Shown here one piece after another: positions 1 to 17,732 of a stretch of 64,000 nt of DNA. The notes under the pieces are model-generated. The model worked only from the letters and a program-made list of their open reading frames with translations. It ran no database searches and was not told where the DNA came from. How positions within the stretch are numbered: the first letter of the stretch is position 1; every line of letters begins with the position of its first letter. Source of the DNA: Parvibaculum sp. (GTDB lineage: Bacteria > Pseudomonadota > Alphaproteobacteria > Parvibaculales > Parvibaculaceae); contig NZ_JAUYUS010000123.1 in assembly GCF_030694575.1 (NCBI RefSeq), positions 1 to 64,000 on the forward strand, given 5' to 3'. Made by a program: the position numbers and the translations under genes.

Positions 1-594
1 AACAAAGCTGAATGGCAGAAGTATGAGCGCTAGTCCGGCCCAGACCAGATGCGCTGGTCGGATCGGGAGGCGTTCAAGCGTGTGATAGTAGAGGAATGCC
101 AGGACCACGATGAACAGGGAGGCCTTGCTGCCGGTCAGCACCCAATAGAGGATGTTGGCAGCCAGCAGGAGGATCCAGAAGCGTTTGCGTGTAACGATTG
201 CGCAGAGCAGAGCCGCTACTGTTACGATTTCGCGCGGGAGAAAGCGGATAACAAAATTCTCGGAGGCGCTGGTCTGCTTCACGCCGATATCCAGTGCGAG
301 CAGAAGATAGCATATCGCGGTAATCGCGAGGCAGAGCATCTGGAACGAAGTACGCCGAGCGATAATTTCCGTTAATTCGCGGATGCGGGCCCTGTCGATC
401 TTCGCGAGATATGCCGCAAACAGGAATACCACGACGAAAAGAACCAGGCATTGCATGCCTACGAGGAACTCCACGCCGAAATCCATCTGCACCCGCAACT
501 TGCCGGGATAGGCGCCGAGCGCGTTGAGCAGCATTTGCGGCAACACAAAGAACATGAACAGAGCCAGGTTGACGATCACGAAACGTCCGCTCAT
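1..594 (-). CDS. Wzy-like polysaccharide polymerase, partial (C-terminus beyond left edge)
   Basis: An uninterrupted minus-strand frame of 198 codons runs off the left end of the window. It begins MSGRFVIVNLALF and shows about six to seven hydrophobic segments separated by short charged loops. A TGSKASL motif near residues 160-166 resembles the SGSR/SGSK loops of O-antigen and exopolysaccharide polymerases. The ATG overlaps the stop of the upstream pyruvyl transferase gene as ATGA, so translation is probably coupled. Position and topology fit the polymerase that joins flipped repeat units at the periplasmic face. An O-antigen ligase or EpsG-like protein cannot be excluded because the large periplasmic loop and C-terminus lie outside the window. 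Confidence 0.7.
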   Translation of the reverse strand, partial: MSGRFVIVNLALFMFFVLPQMLLNALGAYPGKLRVQMDFGVEFLVGMQCLVLFVVVFLFAAYLAKIDRARIRELTEIIARRTSFQMLCLAITAICYLLLALDIGVKQTSASENFVIRFLPREIVTVAALLCAIVTRKRFWILLLAANILYWVLTGSKASLFIVVLAFLYYHTLERLPIRPAHLVWAGLALILLPFSFV

Positions 595-1613
595 GTCGTC
601 ACCTGAATCTGGCGTCGGATTGCCTGCAGGCTCAAATGTCGCCGCGCGTCGAGCAGTGCCGGCGATATCGCGAGATCGGCAGCGGGCAGAACGGAGCCAT
701 CCAGTTGCAGGATCGACCCTGTATGGCCGACCAGTTCGGGTGCTTCCGTCTTGCGGTCGTAGGAAACTAAAATCACCTCTATTCCCCAGTACAGACAGGC
801 TTTGGCCAAGTGGAGCCGGTTGGTGATGACCACTGTACCCGGGTCAAGCGTCAAAGGTGCGGAATTTGGCACCAATGTCAGCTCAACGCGGTTGGACCAT
901 TCGTTGGAGATATGTCTGAAGCAGGGTTCAGCGTCATCGACATTTGCCGATGGTGAAACCGTTATTTTATGAATCTCGCGATTCAATGCGACGTGTCTGA
1001 TCGCGTCCGCAATCCGTGCGGCATTTTGATTGTCGTTATACCCCTGTCCCCGGCCGAAACTGCGGGGAAGGACGATCAGGTGACATGGACCTTGGGGCTG
1101 AGCCGGCCCCGGCTCCAGCCGGAACCGGTCCACCGCCGGGAGAGCCCCCCTGCCTGGCGAACCATCGAAGGCCGGGTGCAGATAGAAGAGGTCGACCACC
1201 TGCCTTGTCGCTTTCCAGGGCATGACCTGCCGAAGTATGGCCGCGCTCTCTGCTGTGCGCACGGAGATGTCTGCCTTTGCGAGTACCAGCCACTGCAAGA
1301 GCCGGGTCAGCCGGCGCCGGGGCATGCCGGACATCTCGATGCTGACGAAGCGGATTGCTTTTCCCATCAGCAGAGCCGGAATCAATACACGGAGGTACGA
1401 ACCGTGGCGCGGAGCGATGACATGCCCGCCGCACACCACAATCCTTTCAGCCTGCCATAGTAGGCTGAGCAGCTTTCCCATCGGGATTCCGCCCTCGACT
1501 ATCCTTACGGTGCTGCCGGACAGCAAGCCGGCGGCGGCTTCGATCATCATTTCGTCGCCGAAGTTGCCTTTTCCTGCGTAACCAACAAGAAGGATCAACG
1601 AAGAGGAAGTCAT
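591..1613 (-). CDS. polysaccharide pyruvyl transferase family protein
   Basis: About 340 residues. The N-terminus (VGYAGKGNFGDE) carries the GNxGDE motif of the PF04230 (CsaB/ExoV/WcaK) family, and a late TNRLHLAKA segment matches its conserved RLH motif. Family members transfer pyruvate from phosphoenolpyruvate to a sugar as a ketal, adding negative charge to the glycan. I placed the start at the ATG at 1613 because its ATGA overlaps the sulfotransferase stop and it puts GNFGDE at the usual N-terminal position. The longer open frame upstream overlaps the sulfotransferase gene and is not needed. The gene sits in a tightly overlapping series with the sulfotransferase and polymerase genes. The acceptor sugar cannot be read from sequence, and some PF04230 members have other roles. 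Confidence 0.8.
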   Translation of the reverse strand: MTSSSLILLVGYAGKGNFGDEMMIEAAAGLLSGSTVRIVEGGIPMGKLLSLLWQAERIVVCGGHVIAPRHGSYLRVLIPALLMGKAIRFVSIEMSGMPRRRLTRLLQWLVLAKADISVRTAESAAILRQVMPWKATRQVVDLFYLHPAFDGSPGRGALPAVDRFRLEPGPAQPQGPCHLIVLPRSFGRGQGYNDNQNAARIADAIRHVALNREIHKITVSPSANVDDAEPCFRHISNEWSNRVELTLVPNSAPLTLDPGTVVITNRLHLAKACLYWGIEVILVSYDRKTEAPELVGHTGSILQLDGSVLPAADLAISPALLDARRHLSLQAIRRQIQVTT

Positions 1614-2524
1614 CGCTTCAGAACCTTTGCCGTCAGGATCGCGGCCAGTTGCATTAGTCTCCAACCAAAGCCACGGCCTTGGCCCGACGGCCGACGCAAG
1701 GCTTGCAATGTGACCAGACACAGACCTGCGCCCAAGCGCCCAAGGTACGGATAGCGCCGGCTCCACTTCGTGTTCTGTTGCGGAGCGAACGGCTGCACTG
1801 TCCGGCTGAAGTGGCCGTCCGCCCAATCCGATCTCTCAAAGTTGTGAGGCGTAATCTCGATCGGTTCGGCCCGGCGGGCGATCCCGGCACGTTCGAGGCG
1901 TCGCAGCAAGCCGTCGCGATAGCTTTGGCTCGCCAGCTTTTCGTAACGCACAAGCATCAGCCGTTGGCGGCCGTAGTAGCGGGCCAGTCGCGCCACTTCC
2001 ACATACTGCCGCGCCCAAAGAGCGAAAAGCAGCGCGACGTTGGAGCTGCCCCAAGGAGTGGCCCGGTTGCTCTGGATTACGTCGAAGGGATTGCGTATCA
2101 GGAACAACAACAAGGCCTCGGGGAAAAGCCATCTCAATGCGGTTGCGTGTTCGCCGTTGCGCGGGGTCTGCTCCAGAATCTGCCGGCCTTCGGTGTAGTG
2201 GTCGGCCGATATCAAAGCCTCGGCGAAGGCGCGAGGGGCGTCCAGAATCCTTCGATGAAGCAACGATCGCGGGAAGAGGATGGAGTGGGGCCTGTTGGCC
2301 CCATGCATCAGAAACTTATGCTGTGTGTGCTGAAAGGCCTCAAAGGTCATGGTTCGATGATCGCGGCCAATGCGATCGAGGATGCCCATGACATTGGTTT
2401 CCGGCGAACAGCGCAGGTCGAGGTCGCGGGCGAGCAGATGCGACAAGGCCGTTGTACCCGAGCGGGCAGGTGCGATAACGAAAACAGGGGCCGGGAGAGG
2501 CGAGGCAACAAATTCCGATGACAT
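1610..2524 (-). CDS. PAPS-dependent sulfotransferase family protein
   Basis: 304 residues, single domain. The N-terminal APARSGTTAL loop (about residues 19-28) is the 5'-phosphosulfate-binding loop of Sulfotransfer_3-type enzymes. RNPFDVIQS (Arg144 to Ser152) matches the 3'-phosphate-binding motif. Such enzymes move a sulfo group from PAPS to a hydroxyl or amino acceptor in the cytoplasm. Its place between the 2OG oxygenase and the pyruvyl transferase, with an ATGA overlap to the latter, points to sulfation of the exopolysaccharide repeat unit. No PAPS synthesis genes are in the window. A lipid or small-molecule acceptor remains possible. Confidence 0.82.
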   Translation of the reverse strand: MSSEFVASPLPAPVFVIAPARSGTTALSHLLARDLDLRCSPETNVMGILDRIGRDHRTMTFEAFQHTQHKFLMHGANRPHSILFPRSLLHRRILDAPRAFAEALISADHYTEGRQILEQTPRNGEHATALRWLFPEALLLFLIRNPFDVIQSNRATPWGSSNVALLFALWARQYVEVARLARYYGRQRLMLVRYEKLASQSYRDGLLRRLERAGIARRAEPIEITPHNFERSDWADGHFSRTVQPFAPQQNTKWSRRYPYLGRLGAGLCLVTLQALRRPSGQGRGFGWRLMQLAAILTAKVLKR

Positions 2525-2664
2525 TAGCGACAGCGCTTCCCGCTTGCGTGTATCTCAGGCATTTCATCATAAATGGCGGCTCGCCGGAATTGGTTTCCAG
2601 ACTGGCCCGACATTGAGCATATCGACTAACGTTCACGCAGCGGTCGATCGGATCGCCAGTGGAG

Positions 2665-3660
2665 CTAATCGCGCTTCAGACGGCCGGACGCCACGTCGCG
2701 GCGGCTCTTCAGCAAGACGTCTTTAACAAAAGTTTTTGCGCCTTTTGGCAGTATTGTGGAAATGCGGCCTTTGATTGTCGCCGCCTTTCTTTTTCCTGTC
2801 TGCTCAATAACAAAAGACTCCCAAGCCGGGTGCTTGGTTGTACGTGCTTCGTTATACCAGAAATTCCCATAAAGCTGCGTCCGCTGATACTTCAAATGGT
2901 CGTATCTAGCCTTCACGCCATGCAATGTATTATTTGCAGGCGAGAATATTACTATGCTGTTATTTTCGTTCTGAATTTTCTTCGTATCGCACCAGCTCCA
3001 AGGTACCCAGCACCTGTCGCTGTCCGGATTTCCCTCCCAGTATGACTGCACGTATTTATGGGAGTCCTTGAACTGAAGATAGTGTGTGTGGTGCTCGTTC
3101 TTTTCCGACTCGGGATCGGAATTGATGTTGACCATGTAGGTGAGAGCTTTCTTCCGAATGTCGGGGTGCGGGCTTATCTCGTAGCCATCCAGGTATTTTT
3201 GAATACCTGCATCGTAGAAGACCTCATCCATGGGAATGCCGAATTTTTCGGCAATCGCCGTGCGGAATTCTTCGCTATTCAGAAACTCCGTCAATTTTTG
3301 AATCGCAGCCGACTTGGGTTGCAACAGGCGAAGCGTCACACCGAAGCCTTCACAGGAGGTATTGTTGTATCTGTGGTCTGAACGTTTGTGCTGGTGCCAG
3401 TTCAGATAGACATCTTTGTCCGTGATGCAGCCGGGAAATTCGATAATCTTGTAGCCGCTCTTGAACAGCGCGTTGAACAGATCGCTGTCCGAGCTTTGCG
3501 GCGCGAGCTTGATCTCCGGCGATGCCGTAATTGCCTTGAAATCGTCTTCGTGGAAAAAATCGTTTATCTGAACATGCGCAAACGGCACATCCTGAACTCG
3601 GGCTTTTCGAATCTTTTCCAAAAGATAGGCGTAAGTCACGGATTCGTTCCACACAGGCAT
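2665..3660 (-). CDS. 2-oxoglutarate/Fe(II)-dependent oxygenase family protein
   Basis: 331 residues from the ATG at 3660; an in-frame TTG at 3675 is an alternative. The double-stranded beta-helix iron site is visible: His165-x-Asp167 in SPHPDIRKK, a distal His247 in LHGVKA, and Arg260 as the likely 2-oxoglutarate ligand. Prolyl-4-hydroxylase-like proteins with this layout hydroxylate peptides, sugars or small molecules. The gene is clearly more AT-rich than its neighbours and has its own perfect TATAAT upstream. It lies 140 bp before the sulfotransferase on the same strand, so action on the polysaccharide, its lipid carrier or a sugar precursor is likely. The substrate is unknown. Confidence 0.72.
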   Translation of the reverse strand: MPVWNESVTYAYLLEKIRKARVQDVPFAHVQINDFFHEDDFKAITASPEIKLAPQSSDSDLFNALFKSGYKIIEFPGCITDKDVYLNWHQHKRSDHRYNNTSCEGFGVTLRLLQPKSAAIQKLTEFLNSEEFRTAIAEKFGIPMDEVFYDAGIQKYLDGYEISPHPDIRKKALTYMVNINSDPESEKNEHHTHYLQFKDSHKYVQSYWEGNPDSDRCWVPWSWCDTKKIQNENNSIVIFSPANNTLHGVKARYDHLKYQRTQLYGNFWYNEARTTKHPAWESFVIEQTGKRKAATIKGRISTILPKGAKTFVKDVLLKSRRDVASGRLKRD

Positions 3661-3678
3661 ATAAAAAGTTACCAAAAT

Positions 3679-3708
3679 ATTATAACAGATAAGTATTCGA
3701 GCGTGTAT
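3679..3708 (-). promoter_or_regulatory. candidate promoter for the oxygenase-sulfotransferase-pyruvyl transferase-polymerase unit
   Basis: A perfect TATAAT lies on the minus strand at 3679-3684, 18 bases upstream of the ATG at 3660. No good -35 box is seen at 16-18 bases spacing, so the call rests on the -10 box and local AT-richness. It would separate this four-gene unit from wzx, which ends at 3808. Confidence 0.3.
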
Positions 3709-3807
3709 TCCATCGGAACTGAATTCAAACGCCTTTCGGCTGGGGCTGCGACACCGGATCCGGCGGCCGGCCAGTTCGCGAGACCGTGATTTTCCATGGT
3801 CTGGCGG

Positions 3808-5118
3808 TCAGAAAATCGAGCTGCCTATGCCCAGCTTTCGACGGATCACAATGGTTAATATGCCCTTGTAGAGCATCAGCGCCGCAAACGTCGCGGTTGC
3901 CGCACCTTCGATACCCATGAACCGGATCAGCACGCTGTTCAAAATCAGATTGGCGGCAACCGCGGCGGAGATCGCGGCCAGCGTGATGCGTTCATTGCCG
4001 CTCATGTTCATGAGCAGAGCCGTGGACCCCAGGGCGGCGTTGATGGTCTGCGCACATGCGAGAATTACCAGTGCGGGATAGCCCGCCCGGAACGGTTCAC
4101 CGAAGGCGACGCCCAGCCCCCATTGCCCTCCAAGTACGATCGCCGTGAGAACGCCCAGTGCCAAAAGGAAGGAGCGGCGGGCGTTGCGCTTGAGAAGCTG
4201 TTGCAGCTCGGCTTTTCTTCCCGCCGCATAGAGTTTGGCTACCTGGGGCATGATGACCACGGTCACCACTTGTTGTCCGAACAAGGCCAATCCCGCGATC
4301 GTCACCACCGGTTTGTATATGCCGACCTCAGTGGCGGACAGAGCCCGCGCGATCATGATGATGTCTATGTTGTTATTGATGGTGGTCAGGCCGGCTACCG
4401 CTCCGAGGGCCCCAGTCGCCAGAAGCAGGGCTCGGCCGTCGATTGCTTCAGTCCGCCCCGCTTCCATCGGCGGAGTGTGACGCAGCAGAATGGCTGTCCC
4501 GATGATGAAGGTCGCGAACGCCGCCGCAATGTGAAGCAACAATGCGTCAAAAGCCGTAAAGTTCGTTGTTCCCGCGATAACGGTCCAGAGCAGCACGGCT
4601 ATGTTGAAGAAGAGCGGGCGCAGAATGCTGTCGGGCAGCTGACCGAATACCAAACGCCCCAAACCGCGCAGCGAAGCCCCACGGAGATTGCCGAGCGCGA
4701 TAAGCGGTACCAGCAGGAGGCCCAGGAGAAAGGTATTTCGCGACGAGATGCCTGTGCCGAAAACGGCTACGGCGGCGATCGTCATAACGGCGATGGCAAA
4801 AGACGTGACCAGGATGACGCGATGGGCCCAGCTCCAGATGGCCCGGATCCGGGCCGTGTTTCCGGCCTGTAGGGCGAGAGCGGTTTCGCGGATCACCAGT
4901 TGAGGAAGACCAAGCGTCGTCGGGATGGCCAGCATGGTCATGATGGCGTAGACGAACGCATACTCTCCATACCCCTCCACGCCCAGAGTGCGAGCGAGAA
5001 GGACTGCCGTCAGAAAGCCCAGGAGTGCGTTGGCAATCTTGATGACGGATGTGATGGCGTTCGGACGCCGTGTTATCCGACCGAGGAGCCCGCGCGGCTT
5101 TATGCGGTCGCTAGGCAT
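3808..5118 (-). CDS. Wzx-like polysaccharide flippase (MOP superfamily)
   Basis: About 436 residues of repeated hydrophobic helices (12-14 expected). The N-terminus shows the typical MOP/Wzx pattern: NALLGFLTAVLLARTLGVEG followed by YGEYAFVYA. Family members move undecaprenyl-pyrophosphate-linked repeat units from the cytoplasmic to the periplasmic leaflet. I chose the ATG at 5118 because AGGAAG sits seven bases upstream; a GTG at 5148 would overlap the preceding gene. The gene follows the initiating phosphotransferase by 19 bp in the same direction, the standard pairing of a Wzx/Wzy pathway. Confidence 0.85.
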   Translation of the reverse strand: MPSDRIKPRGLLGRITRRPNAITSVIKIANALLGFLTAVLLARTLGVEGYGEYAFVYAIMTMLAIPTTLGLPQLVIRETALALQAGNTARIRAIWSWAHRVILVTSFAIAVMTIAAVAVFGTGISSRNTFLLGLLLVPLIALGNLRGASLRGLGRLVFGQLPDSILRPLFFNIAVLLWTVIAGTTNFTAFDALLLHIAAAFATFIIGTAILLRHTPPMEAGRTEAIDGRALLLATGALGAVAGLTTINNNIDIIMIARALSATEVGIYKPVVTIAGLALFGQQVVTVVIMPQVAKLYAAGRKAELQQLLKRNARRSFLLALGVLTAIVLGGQWGLGVAFGEPFRAGYPALVILACAQTINAALGSTALLMNMSGNERITLAAISAAVAANLILNSVLIRFMGIEGAATATFAALMLYKGILTIVIRRKLGIGSSIF

Positions 5119-5137
5119 CGGTCCGCTTCCTTTGCAT

Positions 5138-6463
5138 TCAGCGGGCACCGAAGCCGGTGATCACGGTGCGCAGCGTCTTGAGCAGGATCAGGAAGTCGAG
5201 CCAGGGAGAGAAATTCTTGATGTAGTAGAAGTCATAATGCAGCTTCTCCAGCACTTCGTCCGTCGATGCGACATGTCCCTGCATGACCTGCGCCCAACCG
5301 CTGATTCCCGGGCGGACGATGTGGCGATAGCGGTAGAAGGGAAGCTCCCTTTCGTACCACTCGGATAGAGGCACGGCCTCGGGGCGTGGCCCGATCCAGC
5401 TCATTTCCCCACGCAGGATGTTAATTATCTGCGGCAGTTCGTCGATCCGGGTCCGGCGCAGGAATCTCCCGAAGCGTGTTATCCGCGCATCGTTATTGAG
5501 CGTGATGGCCTTTTGGCGGCTGTCACCTTCCGTATCGTCTTCCATCTTCATGGTACGGAACTTGTACAGGGTGAAAATCTTTCCGCCGTAGCCCATGCGC
5601 GGCTGCCTGAATATGACGGGGCCCTTCGATTCAATCCTGATGACAATTGCGATAGCGGCAAGGAATATGAAACCGAAAACAATTACAAGCGCGGCCAGGA
5701 GCCAGTCAGCCACGCGTTTGAACTTCAGATAGACATCGTTCGGGTTCAGCGCTCCCAGCGTGTTCTCGGATAGATGCTCGATTTCCACCCGGCCCGTGAG
5801 TGTCTCGTACATCTGTTTCACGTGGTAGACGGGGGTGCCGACGATGGCCGTTTCCGTAATGAAGCGTTCCCACTCAGGCGGAAAATCCGCACGCAGGTCG
5901 GCCACCATCGCGTCCAGCCGGTTTTCCGGGAGCTTGGGTTCCGACAGCGTCTGCCAAATGATGTTTTTGAGCTGAGGCAACCTGTCGGTTTCTCCGCCCG
6001 GCACTATGCCTATCCGAAACGATCGAATTCTTGTCAGGACGATCGCGAGCGCCGTAAACCAGACAACCGACAATACGAAACTGGAGCCGAAGAGGTAGCG
6101 GCTGTAGTCCAGCCGCAAGAACAGAAACACGACGAGAACGGCCCCATACGACAGCATAAAGACGGGAACCGAATATGAAATTCCGTCGGTACCGGGATAG
6201 GAGGCCAAGCGTCCAAAAATAAAGAAGCCTACCGTCATTGCGACGGTCGCTCCGATAATTGTGTTATTCAGGCTCAGTGAGGTAAGGGGCATTTCAAGCA
6301 GGTCGAACCGCAGCAGGACCGGCAAGACAACGGCAAACAGAACCCCGCCCAGAAGCTGCGTTCTCTGCTTTAGCAGGGCGCTTTTCAGCACGCCGGAAAC
6401 AGATAACGGCCCGGCTTCGAACATACTCTTCGACATTTCAGAGGCGGCGCCGTCGTTGTCCAC
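5138..6463 (-). CDS. polyprenyl glycosylphosphotransferase (ExoY/WcaJ type), initiating enzyme
   Basis: About 441 residues. An N-terminal membrane region with several helices is followed by a final helix and the bacterial sugar transferase domain. Signature motifs are present: KFRTM, DELPQ, GPRP, and PGISGWAQV near the C-terminus. The enzyme transfers a sugar-1-phosphate from a nucleotide sugar to undecaprenyl phosphate, starting each repeat unit on the inner face. The terminal TVITGFGAR tail resembles exopolysaccharide-type members. The GTG at 6463 is preferred because AAGGAAG lies seven bases before it; an upstream GTG at 6496 and an ATG at 6436 lack this. This is one of two such enzymes in the window. 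Confidence 0.88.
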   Translation of the reverse strand: MDNDGAASEMSKSMFEAGPLSVSGVLKSALLKQRTQLLGGVLFAVVLPVLLRFDLLEMPLTSLSLNNTIIGATVAMTVGFFIFGRLASYPGTDGISYSVPVFMLSYGAVLVVFLFLRLDYSRYLFGSSFVLSVVWFTALAIVLTRIRSFRIGIVPGGETDRLPQLKNIIWQTLSEPKLPENRLDAMVADLRADFPPEWERFITETAIVGTPVYHVKQMYETLTGRVEIEHLSENTLGALNPNDVYLKFKRVADWLLAALVIVFGFIFLAAIAIVIRIESKGPVIFRQPRMGYGGKIFTLYKFRTMKMEDDTEGDSRQKAITLNNDARITRFGRFLRRTRIDELPQIINILRGEMSWIGPRPEAVPLSEWYERELPFYRYRHIVRPGISGWAQVMQGHVASTDEVLEKLHYDFYYIKNFSPWLDFLILLKTLRTVITGFGAR

Positions 6464-6820
6464 GTGTGGACTTCCTTTCGCAGAATTTACCCCCACTCCT
6501 GTCTCGCCTCATGTCATCGAATGCACTATTCCCGCTTTTTGATATTATATAGAGATCGTCTAAAAATCATATCAGCTTCGTCGTGCCTGGCTGGCGAAAA
6601 GAGCCATCCGGCAACTCAATTTGGTCCGGCCAAGGCGTTGAGAGGCTGGATCGCGGAAGATTTCTAATCTAGTAATATTATGGGTTGGATCGGCTTCGGT
6701 CATCAGCGGAATTCAAGTGGAGATTGTGCCGTGCCGGCGCCATCCCGGACGATTTTCTGCCAATTGTTGTCGCAGCGGTCTCAGTTTTTGGGAAAACCGG
6801 CTTTGTCTTCGCCCGGTGTC
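6464..6820. other. divergent intergenic region between the phosphotransferase and gmd
   Basis: This 357-bp stretch separates two divergently transcribed polysaccharide genes. It contains AT-rich blocks near 6540-6580 and 6662-6680 against a GC-rich background, so it probably carries promoters for both sides. An open frame continuous with gmd crosses part of it from 6680, but it lacks similarity to the Gmd N-terminus. No RNA gene or clear operator was recognised. Confidence 0.5.
6544..6572 (-). promoter_or_regulatory. candidate promoter for the phosphotransferase-wzx unit
   Basis: A perfect TATAAT on the minus strand at 6544-6549 lies 80 bases upstream of the chosen GTG start. The -35 region is only a weak match. 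Support comes from the perfect -10 box, the local AT-richness and its position in the divergent region. Confidence 0.35.
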
Positions 6821-7942
6821 ATGTGGAAGAGACCATTGCCTCTAGTTCAGCCGACACGTCGACATACGCACCTTGTGGGGGACCGTCCCATTGCCCTGAT
6901 TACCGGCGTGACGGGGCAGGATGGAGGTTATCTTGCGGCGTTGCTGCTTCAGAAAGGATATGTCGTTCACGGAATAGCCCGTGATCTGTCGCGCCTGGAC
7001 AGGTCACGCTTCGAACATATTCTCGATGTTGATCGACGCCTCCATCTTCATGTCTGCGACATCGTGGACGCCGTCTCTCTTGCACGATTGCTGGATGAGA
7101 TACGGCCCGACGAGATCTACAACCTGGCGGCGCAGACACATATCCAGACGAGCTTCGAGGACCCGGCCCGCACGACGGACGTGAACGCGACCGGCGCGGT
7201 GCGCCTTTTGAGTGCGCTGGTCAAGTCCGATCCAGGCCGGCGAACGAGATACTACCAAGCTTCCAGTTCCGAGATGTTCGGCGATGCGAACGGGCACATT
7301 CAGGACGAAAGCAGTCATTTCCATCCCATGAATCCATATGCGGTTTCCAAGCTGGCTGCATATGAGGCGACCGTCAATTTCAGGGAGGCATTCGGGGTGC
7401 ACGCCTCCAACGGGATTCTGTTCAACCACGAAAGCCCATGGCGCGGTGAGCGTTTTGTGACGCGCAAGATTTCGCTCGCGGTTGCACGTCGCCATTTCGG
7501 CGACACCGCACTGCTCAAGCTGGGCAATCTCGATACGCGGCGCGATTGGGGCCACGCGCGTGATTATGTCGAGGGAATGTGGCTGATGCTGCAGCGTGAC
7601 GAGCCCGACGACTATGTCCTTGCGACGTCAGAACACCACTCGGTCAGGGAATTTGTCGAGATCGCTTTCGGTGAGATCGGGCGCAAGCTTGTATGGGAAG
7701 GCGAGGGGGCCGACGAGGTGGGGTTCGATCTGGAGAGCGGCGACCCTCTTGTGGCTGTCGATCCAACCTTCTTTCGCCCGACGGATATCGGTCTGACGCT
7801 TGGAGATGCCTCCAAGGCCCGCCAGTTGCTCGGTTGGGAATGCCGGACGAGTTTTGCCCAGCTGGTCAATGAAATGGTGGCGGCCGATATCAGGCGGTTC
7901 GAATTGGCTAAGGCGAGCGGCGCGAACCAGCCGACAATCTGA
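6821..7942 (+). CDS. gmd: GDP-mannose 4,6-dehydratase
   Basis: About 373 residues from the ATG at 6821; a GTG at 6875 (GDRPIALITG) would match the family N-terminus more closely, and neither has a clear ribosome site. GVTGQDGGYLA is the NADP-binding Rossmann loop typical of Gmd. SSSEMFG and YAVSK supply the catalytic Ser/Glu and Tyr-x3-Lys of extended short-chain dehydrogenases. The enzyme converts GDP-mannose to GDP-4-keto-6-deoxymannose. GDP-mannose would come from manC downstream. No reductase or aminotransferase to finish GDP-fucose, GDP-rhamnose or GDP-perosamine lies in the window. Confidence 0.87.
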   Translation: MWKRPLPLVQPTRRHTHLVGDRPIALITGVTGQDGGYLAALLLQKGYVVHGIARDLSRLDRSRFEHILDVDRRLHLHVCDIVDAVSLARLLDEIRPDEIYNLAAQTHIQTSFEDPARTTDVNATGAVRLLSALVKSDPGRRTRYYQASSSEMFGDANGHIQDESSHFHPMNPYAVSKLAAYEATVNFREAFGVHASNGILFNHESPWRGERFVTRKISLAVARRHFGDTALLKLGNLDTRRDWGHARDYVEGMWLMLQRDEPDDYVLATSEHHSVREFVEIAFGEIGRKLVWEGEGADEVGFDLESGDPLVAVDPTFFRPTDIGLTLGDASKARQLLGWECRTSFAQLVNEMVAADIRRFELAKASGANQPTI

Positions 7943-7971: not shown

Positions 7972-9306
7972 TCAGGCTTCGTGTTCGGCGGTCGAAGGTG
8001 AAACGGATGAACGCCCTACCGAGTGATATTCGAAGCCGGCCTGGGCCATTTCCTCCAAAGTGTAGATGTTGCGCAGGTCGACAATACGCGGTGTTTTGAC
8101 CGCGCGGCGAAGACGCTCGAAATCCAGCGCGCGAAACTCGTTCCATTCGGTGAGTATGAGGATCGCGTCGGCACCCGGCATCACGCTGTAGGCGTCTTCC
8201 ACCCATTCGATATCCTGAAGATATTTCCGGGCTTCTCTCATGCCCTCCGGATCGTAAGCTCGTATACGGGCGCCGGCTTGCTGCAACAGGGGGATAATGT
8301 CGAGGCTTGGTGCATCTCGCATGTCGTCGGTATTCGGTTTGAACGTAACCCCGAGGACACCGATCGTCTTGCCCGTCAGGTCGCCGCCGCAGGCCGCGGC
8401 GATCTTGTTGGCCATTCTTTTCTTCCGCTCGTTGTTTGCGTCCATGACCGCTTCCACGATCTTGGTCGGACGCCCGGCGCGCCGCGCGGTACCGGCCAGC
8501 GCCAGGGTGTCCTTCGGAAAGCAGGACCCCCCAAAACCGGCGCCTGCCTGGAGGAACTTCAGGCCGATGCGGGTGTCGAGCCCTATGCCCCGGGAGACGT
8601 CCTGCACATCCGCGCCCACCACCTCGCATATGTCGGCTATCTCGTTGATAAAGGTGACCTTCATGGCGAGGAAAGCGTTGGCGGCGTATTTGGTAAGCTC
8701 CGCGGTGGCCACGCCGGTGTACAGGAAGTGCATTTCGCTCAGCATGAGCGGCCGGTAGATTGCCTGTATAACTGCACGAGCGCGCGGGCTGTCGGTACCG
8801 ATGACGATGCGATCGGGTCGCATGAAATCGTCGATGGCGTTTCCCTCGCGCAGAAATTCCGGATTTGATGCAACGTCGAAGTCCGCATCCGGATTAATCT
8901 TGCGAATGATTGCCTCAACCTCCCTTGCCGTGCCGACGGGGACGGTCGATTTGTCGACGACGACTGTGTAGTTCATGAGATACGGGGCGATTTCGGCGGC
9001 CGCGGCGTAGACATAGCTCAGGTCGGCATCGCCATCCTCGCGAGGAGGGGTGCCCACGCAGATGAAGACCGCGTCGCTGGATGCGACCGCCGGTCCGGCC
9101 TCGCTGGTGAACGTCAGCCGTCCGGCTTCCACGTTGCGGGTGAAGACGTCCTCGAGGCCGGGTTCATAGATCGGAATTTCGCCTTGTTGAAGCCGTGCAA
9201 CTTTGGCGGGGTCTTTTTCCACGCAAACGACTTCGTGGCCGATCTCGGCAAAGCATGTGCCGGAAACCAGGCCTACGTAGCCTGTGCCAATCATGGCGAT
9301 CTTCAT
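7972..9306 (-). CDS. ugd: UDP-glucose 6-dehydrogenase
   Basis: 444 residues, the usual length. The N-terminal GTGYVGLVSG loop binds NAD, and GAGFGGSCFPKDT holds the catalytic cysteine and its lysine neighbour. The enzyme oxidises UDP-glucose to UDP-glucuronate in two steps. galU, which supplies UDP-glucose, lies 40 bp upstream on the same strand, so the pair likely forms an operon feeding acidic sugar into the polysaccharide. The gene is convergent with gmd. Confidence 0.95.
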   Translation of the reverse strand: MKIAMIGTGYVGLVSGTCFAEIGHEVVCVEKDPAKVARLQQGEIPIYEPGLEDVFTRNVEAGRLTFTSEAGPAVASSDAVFICVGTPPREDGDADLSYVYAAAAEIAPYLMNYTVVVDKSTVPVGTAREVEAIIRKINPDADFDVASNPEFLREGNAIDDFMRPDRIVIGTDSPRARAVIQAIYRPLMLSEMHFLYTGVATAELTKYAANAFLAMKVTFINEIADICEVVGADVQDVSRGIGLDTRIGLKFLQAGAGFGGSCFPKDTLALAGTARRAGRPTKIVEAVMDANNERKKRMANKIAAACGGDLTGKTIGVLGVTFKPNTDDMRDAPSLDIIPLLQQAGARIRAYDPEGMREARKYLQDIEWVEDAYSVMPGADAILILTEWNEFRALDFERLRRAVKTPRIVDLRNIYTLEEMAQAGFEYHSVGRSSVSPSTAEHEA

Positions 9307-16142: not shown

Positions 16143-17732
16143 TCAGCAGGCGCCCCGGCGAAGCAGCACGGCGGGGAACGTCTTGAACATGATGGCGATG
16201 TCCTGCCACAGCGACCAGTTCTTCACGTACCAGGCGTCGAGTTCGACGCGGCGCATATAGGTCGTGTCGTTGCGGCCGCTCACCTGCCAGAGGCCGGTGA
16301 TGCCGGGCTTGGCGGAGAGGTAGTATTCAGCGTCCTCGCCATAGCGCAGCACTTCGGAATAGGTGACCGGGCGCGGGCCGACGAGGCTCATCTCGCCGCG
16401 GATCACGTTGATGAGCTGCGGCAGCTCGTCAAGGCTCGTCTTGCGCAGGAATTCACCCACCCGCGTCACGCGCGGATCGTTGCGCAGCTTCTGGTCGCGC
16501 GCCCATTCGGCGGCGCGGAGAGGATCGTTCTCGAGTACGTCCTTCAGGATCGCTTCGCCGTCGACATGCATCGTGCGGAACTTCCGGCACATGAAATCGC
16601 GGCCCTTCTCGCCCACGCGGCGGTGGCTGAAGAAAGCCGGGCCGCCGTCGAGGCGGATCAGCGCCGAAACGGCCCAGAAGAAGGGCGCGAGCAGAACCAG
16701 CGCCAGCGAGGCGACGGCGAGGTCGAAGCTGCGCTTCATGATGCGCGCCATCGGCCGGTTCAGGTTGTCGGCGAGCGTCAGCATCACGAGGTCGTGGCTG
16801 AAGAAATTGCCGGCTTCGAGCGCCATCACGCCGATGCCCTTCACCGGCGGGATGATCGAGAAGGCGATGCGGGCGCGGTGCAGCGCGCGCAGGATGTGAT
16901 CGAGGCTCGCCATTTCCTCGGGCGAGGGGGCGAGGACGACGAAGCGGGCGCCGTGGCGATCGCAGGCGAGCTTCAGCGCGGCGGAGAGCTGGCCGCCGGC
17001 GCGGTAGAGCAGGCTCGCGGGATTGGCGGCATTGCGCTCCGAGGTCAGTTCGGCAAGGTCCAGCGTGCCCGCCACCTCGTAGCCAAGATAGGGCTCCGAC
17101 TCGAGCACCTGGGCGGCTTCGAGAGTGTTCTCTTTCGAGCCAATGAGCAGCACCGGCGCGGTCCAGCTTCCGTACCGCTTCAGGACATGTCTCATCGCGA
17201 TACGTGCCGTCGGCACAAGGATGAGGGCCCAGAGCCATGCCTGGAGCATCCAGAGACGCGAGAAATAGTCCTTGGTCAGGTATTGCAGGAAGCCGTCGAC
17301 GAGCGCGACAAGGGCGATGCCTTTCACGATTTCCTTCGCTTCCGCCCAGAAGGGGGTGCGCTTCGAATAATGGCCCTTGGCGGCCCACCAGAGGATCGGA
17401 AGCATCAGCAGGAAACCGATGCGGATGAGGCGGCTGGTCAGCTCGCCGGCCTCCAAGGCCCCGAATTCCGTATTCAAAACCTGCACATTGATGCCGAATG
17501 CGATCGACCCGGCGATCGCCTGCGCCACCGCCAGCGCGCCCAGGTCGCCGACCAGCAGCATGAAACGGTCGGCCAGCGGGGTGAGGCGAGTGCCCGTGCC
17601 CGTTTCCTCGCGATAGGTGGCCTCAAGGCCGGCGACGCCCGCCGCCGGGACGGGGGTCCCGGTTTCAAAGGCCGAAATCTGCTTTTCCAGTACGCTCACG
17701 ATGCCCACGCTGCTTGTATCCGAATGCGACAA
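16143..17732 (-). CDS. polyprenyl glycosylphosphotransferase, WbaP-like
   Basis: 529 residues. About five N-terminal membrane helices (roughly residues 55-190), a cytoplasmic CoA-binding-like middle domain and a further helix precede the catalytic domain. Motifs are KRSFDLAVA, KFRTM, SLDELPQLINVIRGEMS, GPRP, PGITGLWQVSGR and YVKNWSLWQDI. The long N-terminus and the WQVSGRN ending match WbaP-type enzymes, many of which move galactose-1-phosphate from UDP-galactose to undecaprenyl phosphate. The divergent galT-galK genes 120 bp away support a galactose link. The sugar specificity is inference. Confidence 0.88.
   Translation of the reverse strand: MSHSDTSSVGIVSVLEKQISAFETGTPVPAAGVAGLEATYREETGTGTRLTPLADRFMLLVGDLGALAVAQAIAGSIAFGINVQVLNTEFGALEAGELTSRLIRIGFLLMLPILWWAAKGHYSKRTPFWAEAKEIVKGIALVALVDGFLQYLTKDYFSRLWMLQAWLWALILVPTARIAMRHVLKRYGSWTAPVLLIGSKENTLEAAQVLESEPYLGYEVAGTLDLAELTSERNAANPASLLYRAGGQLSAALKLACDRHGARFVVLAPSPEEMASLDHILRALHRARIAFSIIPPVKGIGVMALEAGNFFSHDLVMLTLADNLNRPMARIMKRSFDLAVASLALVLLAPFFWAVSALIRLDGGPAFFSHRRVGEKGRDFMCRKFRTMHVDGEAILKDVLENDPLRAAEWARDQKLRNDPRVTRVGEFLRKTSLDELPQLINVIRGEMSLVGPRPVTYSEVLRYGEDAEYYLSAKPGITGLWQVSGRNDTTYMRRVELDAWYVKNWSLWQDIAIMFKTFPAVLLRRGAC

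Follow-up and report, generated by a model that had tools for sequence, protein, structure and literature searches.

The gene under study, here called OXY, encodes a putative Fe(II)/2-oxoglutarate (2OG) oxygenase and lies near the start of the window, by which we mean the whole 64,000-nucleotide stretch of Parvibaculum DNA that was analysed (Table 1). Read along the minus strand, the gene order is wcaJ, wzx, OXY, a sulfotransferase, a pyruvyl-transferase-like gene and a wzy-like gene, with gmd and UDP-glucose dehydrogenase just upstream; the WcaJ-type product also scores 289.7 bits against TIGR03025, slightly below the cut-off. This setting bears out the first-pass annotation, which had placed the oxygenase in a polysaccharide assembly locus. 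A second WcaJ-type transferase domain occurs in a 551-residue frame at window positions 16152–16739, about 10 kb from the first. Overlaps join wcaJ to wzx (11 bases), the sulfotransferase to the pyruvyl-transferase-like gene (4 bases) and the latter to wzy (4 bases). OXY, by contrast, is separated from wzx by 147 bases and from the sulfotransferase by 140, as would be expected of an insertion into so tight an operon. A search for repeats flanking OXY gave only chance-like pairs.

Table 1. Features of the locus in window coordinates.
Feature	Positions	Strand	Basis and remarks
Wzy-polymerase-like membrane protein	1..594	-	by eye; cut by window edge
Divergent polysaccharide pyruvyl transferase relative (CsaB-like)	591..1613	-	TIGR03609; start ATG 1613
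Sulfotransferase (PF13469)	1610..2524	-	73.8 bits, E 3.1e-20
Gap between OXY and sulfotransferase	2525..2664	-	140 bases
OXY, Fe(II)/2OG oxygenase (putative)	2665..3660	-	331 aa from ATG 3660; alignment, PF13640, fold search
R260, presumed 2-oxoglutarate carboxylate ligand	2881..2883	-	invariant in 30
H247, third iron ligand (predicted)	2920..2922	-	invariant in 30
H165-P166-D167, iron ligands (predicted)	3160..3168	-	H165 and D167 conserved in all 30 sequences
Gap between wzx and OXY	3661..3807	-	147 bases, GC 0.50
TATAAT (TGTTATAAT), upstream of OXY	3679..3684	-	preceded by TGT; -10 only
Wzx flippase (PF01943)	3808..5148	-	61.5 bits
WcaJ-type initiating sugar-phosphate transferase (PF02397)	5138..6496	-	211.1 bits
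GDP-mannose 4,6-dehydratase (gmd)	6680..7942	+	TIGR01472 446.6 bits, above cut-off
Nucleotide-sugar (UDP-glucose) dehydrogenase	7972..9306	-	TIGR03026 475.3 bits, above cut-off

The product of 591–1613 appears from its sequence to be only a divergent relative of the polysaccharide pyruvyl transferases. It scores 33.4 bits (E 2.9e-8) on TIGR03609, the CsaB model, where the cut-off of 213.1 is not reached, matches PF04230 at E 0.3 only and compares weakly (E 0.031) with a profile of 15 pyruvyl transferases found as neighbours of other OXY copies. The pyruvyl transferase of one bacterial locus (L018) scores with similar strength on the CsaB model (37.0 bits). No PF04230 match was found in the window's own genome at E 0.001.

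The frame opened by the ATG at 3660 is intact and encodes 331 residues. The GTG at 3639 seems the likelier start, giving a product of 324 residues, because the N-termini of homologues correspond to about residue 8 in a 30-row alignment; such a start would leave space for a leader downstream of the TATAAT hexamer. This alignment comprises the window copy and 29 intact bacterial loci, the frame-shifted L035 and L037 having been dropped, and has 37 invariant columns that include the ligands, H191, T192 and four tryptophans. The earlier claim that His165, Asp167, His247 and Arg260 are intact was confirmed with the same numbering, all four being invariant across the 30 sequences. We take R260 to be the 2OG ligand from general knowledge of the superfamily. 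With the HxD...H triad, the basic 2OG ligand and a fold match, OXY carries the superfamily hallmark and is very probably an active iron enzyme. Its C-terminal tail (residues 286–331; 2668–2805) is helical in a low-confidence part of the model and contains 14 lysines or arginines in 46 residues; such a basic tail is common to many bacterial copies and short or absent in viral ones. Its basic character suggests, as a guess, work close to the membrane.

Standard models recognise OXY poorly. It scores 18.2 bits against PF13640 (2OG-FeII_Oxy_3; residues 152–253), where the cut-off of 27 is not reached; no other Pfam match was found up to E 10, no NCBIfam model fits above its cut-off and no PHROG matched. 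PF13640 is matched at E 0.1 or better by 16 of 30 family members. OXY is single-copy in its host genome, in which four other oxygenases exceed the PF13640 cut-off. The AlphaFold model (mean pLDDT 84.1, pTM 0.80) gave PolD as its best fold match (Z 18.3 over 184 residues, r.m.s.d. 2.8), followed by PasI (Z 17.5), the structures of these two enzymes spanning Z 17.3–18.3 over 184–203 residues; Tpa1/OGFOD1 (Z about 15–16) and prolyl hydroxylases (about 13) came lower. The model was also matched by BFVD entry A0A5B8IHX4 from the giant virus ChoanoV1, a 616-residue protein named as a GDP-mannose 4,6-dehydratase, and this match suggests a fused dehydratase–oxygenase.

The first-pass annotation had regarded OXY as an AT-rich gene that differs in composition from its neighbours and has its own TATAAT, and hence as a recent arrival, which on that view may have given rise to a new modification. 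Its GC content is indeed low, 0.489 against 0.556–0.608 in nine neighbours and a mean of 0.63 in 23 reference open reading frames of the window. When the protein was recoded with the codon use of the window, however, the expected GC was 0.541 (s.d. 0.008), so that roughly 9 of the 14 points of GC separating OXY from the reference genes follow from amino-acid composition. The difference in GC3 (0.613, expected 0.747) is genuine yet smaller, and by codon log-likelihood OXY (-1.145) is no odder than the sulfotransferase (-1.21), wzx (-1.205) or gmd (-1.21). AT-richness is weakened as a sign of recency, being mostly a matter of protein composition, and we rejected the argument that the gene is recent because it is AT-rich. 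The TATAAT is present at 3684–3679 on the minus strand as a lone -10 hexamer; a promoter scan found neither a sigma-70 site there nor a -35 element, and the idea of an OXY promoter was likewise dropped.

No OXY match was found in 39 other genomes searched in its order or in 97 other relatives, and a search of 398 genomes of the phylum returned only OXY itself and one spurious 19-bit match with six stops. Because the order lacks a match in those 39 genomes and gaps interrupt an otherwise overlapping operon, OXY was probably inserted laterally. In five congeneric loci wcaJ is shared and the ugd/galU backbone partly so; the genes beyond wcaJ differ and OXY is absent from all five. The sugar module beyond wcaJ is strain-specific as a whole, and OXY is for this reason not uniquely recent. 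What survives of the recent arrival is the lateral part, to which a tree mixing phyla and viruses also speaks, and not an origin newer than that of the module.

A scan of a collection of 84,980 species with the OXY core (residues 150–277) found at least 31 bacterial loci, a lower bound since the scan requires exact peptide patterns; the intact ones are 39–61% identical to OXY over most of its length. A first viral scan with a single OXY protein confirmed none, and later scans gave 20 and then 59 loci; the 65 viral loci used fall into 25 groups at 70% identity. Members are dispersed among several bacterial phyla and among uncultivated viruses. In the tree, window OXY belongs to a mainly bacterial group of mixed phyla (21 bacterial copies and one viral; support 95/90), where its closest relatives are L007 (Lysobacteraceae) and L008 (Rhodospirillales). 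A second group joins 21 viral copies to one Bacteroidota member (99/97), and a weakly supported one (83/88) mixes alphaproteobacterial copies with viral copies situated beside tail genes, L031 and the viral L038 being 75.6% identical. The family is mobile and laterally spread. Among closely related viruses, oxygenases about 88% identical lie within a sugar cluster beside PF04230 (L047) and outside one (L048–L051, with a carbamoyltransferase-like fragment at +2, by eye), and the gene therefore moves between sites.

Both of the groups that join viral copies to bacterial ones, together with the opposite-strand position of OXY beside tail genes, could be explained by a phage-carried modification gene that altered the host surface or the phage's own structure, as in seroconversion, and was acquired by bacteria. 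Phage-encoded capsule O-acetyltransferases offer a known parallel for phage-borne surface modification (PMC6586298). We regard such an origin as very unlikely: the window copy sits in the mainly bacterial group, and inspection by eye of the first 14 kb of the window revealed no prophage gene. Searches with tblastn gave no match, whether window OXY was compared with phage and plasmid records, three viral copies with phages or one bacterial copy with plasmids, so that the viral copies are known here from uncultivated contigs only. A phage origin would be compatible with sugar hydroxylation, since it concerns where the gene came from and not its chemistry.

Around the bacterial copies no conserved partner was found. 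By eye, about ten of 29 loci have a sugar-gene setting (L008, L012, L013, L017, L018, L020, L023, L025, L027 and L036), and many others adjoin housekeeping genes, among them dxs, thymidylate kinase, mutS and dps. The glycosyltransferase family PF00534 accounts for six of 137 proteins within 2.5 kb of OXY and six of 132 at 5.5–9.5 kb, counted without the near-duplicates L020 and L021 and, in the near set (142 before removal), without five very long proteins (from L007, L008, L010, L016 and L019); glycosyltransferase-rich surroundings were accordingly rejected as a general bacterial rule. Well over a third of the bacterial homologues, perhaps two thirds, lie outside recognisable glycan loci by eye, which speaks against a role confined to glycans. 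The first-pass annotation had said that homologues consistently so placed, and with a known protein or small-molecule substrate, would count against a glycan role; no such substrate is known for them.

Many of these bacterial copies are solitary, the nearest folds (PolD and PasI) are antibiotic enzymes, and TylF- or FkbM-type methyltransferases occur near L007, L012 and L017, all of which would fit an enzyme that produces or transforms a small diffusible metabolite, such as a nucleoside or secondary metabolite, independently of surface glycans. We think this unlikely, given that OXY occurs in viral sugar clusters and that PF04230 is the only recurring biosynthetic partner found. The methyltransferases, one or two genes from OXY in L007, L012, L017 and L022 (the last assigned by clustering with that of L007), perhaps cap a new hydroxyl.

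The viral copies of the first set lie mostly in sugar clusters with PF04230, GT25, GT8 and FkbM genes, and with gmd in L056 (by eye). PF04230, the polysaccharide pyruvyl transferase family, is the commonest neighbour, with nine of 79 genes around nine viral copies; the 79 were taken from 140 by excluding near-copies, tail-side and other non-sugar contigs, and the count therefore describes sugar-cluster contigs. Two copies (L038 and L039) instead have PHROG tail matches nearby. Together with a fold of the Tpa1/OGFOD1/P4H group (Z 13–16), their position might indicate that OXY hydroxylates a protein in the manner of a prolyl hydroxylase, for example a surface or tail protein, its sugar-gene setting being incidental. 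We judge this to be unlikely too, although protein and small-molecule substrates both remain serious alternatives: both copies are transcribed in the opposite direction to the tail genes, as an added gene would be, the sugar-nucleoside enzymes PolD and PasI outrank the protein hydroxylases in the fold search, and OXY is paired with PF04230.

A search of 34 viral records, which together represent all 25 groups, detected PF04230 in 25 records. With the longest sampled contig representing each group, PF04230 is present in 17 groups, as the direct neighbour of OXY in 13 and no more than two genes away in 15, and it may lie on one flank of OXY or the other; the remaining eight groups have no PF04230 on the chosen contig, these contigs being fragments. 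Conditional on the 17 groups, Fisher's combined test gives p 1.9e-7 for position along the contig and 4.8e-4 for position within the local neighbourhood, and the link therefore exceeds the mere sharing of a sugar cluster. On three contigs (L118, L122 and L124, of 138, 91 and 72 kb) the sole PF04230 match is the immediate neighbour of OXY. The choice of contig matters in places: in groups 0 and 1 it lacks PF04230 and other members have it (L098 at +2, L103 and L105 at +5, L047 at -1), and group 4 is represented by L075, where the two are adjacent, while in L077 of the same group they are twelve genes (6.1 kb) apart. In L054, L055 and L118 PF04230 occupies the C-terminus of a protein some 730–750 residues long that is encoded directly before OXY; in L118 the part ahead of PF04230 is a glycosyltransferase.

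Among bacteria, PF04230 is present in 25 of 30 OXY-bearing genomes (a count that omits L042 and L025) and missing from five, compared with 117 of 398 genomes of the phylum (p 6e-9); restricted to Pseudomonadota, the count is 18 of 23, or 16 of 21 after deduplication (p 2e-5). FkbM, a control from another sugar-decorating family, shows no excess (19/30 versus 222/398). Assuming that contig numbers are those of the accessions, four of the 30 genomes have PF04230 no more than 3.5 kb from OXY (L013, L018, L020 and L023; 0.11 expected), or three (0.105 expected) when the near-duplicate L020 is dropped. In the window a sulfotransferase and then the pyruvyl-transferase-like gene lie beside OXY, the divergent relative being two genes away, and these three kinds of gene recur in reverse order in the viral L040 (the sulfotransferase by eye). 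The pairing is non-random in viruses and in some bacteria. To the extent of our searches, neither the family nor its pairing has been described: a literature search of titles and the beginnings of abstracts gave nothing that links an oxygenase of this kind to a pyruvyl transferase, and a passage on giant viruses mentions both kinds of enzyme as separate matters (PMC9614988). A PDB search with the viral pyruvyl-transferase profile gave nothing convincing.

We lean towards the explanation that OXY is a working Fe(II)/2OG sugar hydroxylase of a mobile, unnamed family, acting in a pathway shared with a polysaccharide pyruvyl transferase. A sugar is our best guess at the substrate, somewhat favoured by the evidence as a whole, and we infer that the pairing reflects one pathway. 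OXY would add oxygen to a nucleotide- or lipid-linked sugar or to a repeat unit; in the window the target would presumably be, before export, the repeat unit of a sulfated polysaccharide of the Wzx/Wzy type. The enolpyruvyl chemistry associated with PolD, in combination with the PF04230 pairing, suggests by analogy a bolder possibility, oxidation of a pyruvylated sugar by OXY. Here the transferase would put a pyruvyl group derived from PEP on the sugar as a ketal or enol ether, and OXY would oxidise that group or the adjacent carbon, much as PolD and PasI oxidise octosyl acid. Together they would make one new decoration, as a two-enzyme unit lodged in viral sugar clusters and traded among bacteria as a surface-switching cassette; we offer this as speculation and think it improbable.

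If the preferred reading, sugar hydroxylation, is true, a widespread and unmodelled oxygenase family that moves between phyla and viruses and accompanies pyruvyl transferases would indicate surface-sugar chemistry that standard annotation misses, and also sugars altered by viruses. The pairing with PF04230 gives the first testable lead, namely an expected mass increase of 16 on pyruvylated or neighbouring sugars.

The closest known systems by predicted structure are PolD from Streptomyces cacaoi (PDB code 9blq) and PasI from Photorhabdus asymbiotica (PDB codes 9ei6 and 9ei7), with which the OXY model shares its fold; the HxD region aligns with that of PolD (sequence match E 7.4e-4). Both are antibiotic enzymes acting on octosyl-acid sugar nucleosides, and a passage in PMC5365060 proposes that PolD acts on octosyl acid, built on 3'-enolpyruvyl-UMP, a sugar enol ether. 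OXY differs from them in its own set of invariant residues, in sequence (18–19% identity), in length (331 residues against 198–216 in the structures) and in its occurrence in polysaccharide rather than antibiotic loci; no genes for octosyl-acid synthesis were recognised by eye near window OXY. The Tpa1/OGFOD1 prolyl hydroxylases share the fold at 12–15% identity with chains of 457–563 residues. Knowledge of hydroxylated surface sugars comes mostly from a handful of enzymes, among them KdoO, the Kdo-3-hydroxylase. The first-pass description of glycan hydroxylation as rarely described is fair, although it passes over a precedent: passages in PMC8533242 and PMC5462993 place the KdoO gene inside an O-antigen cluster in Burkholderia. 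Compared by description only, KdoO, like OXY as proposed here, is an Fe(II)/2OG enzyme whose target for hydroxylation is a sugar of a surface glycan; it differs in its substrate, the core Kdo. By this analogy, chemistry of the kind proposed for OXY would already have a known precedent.
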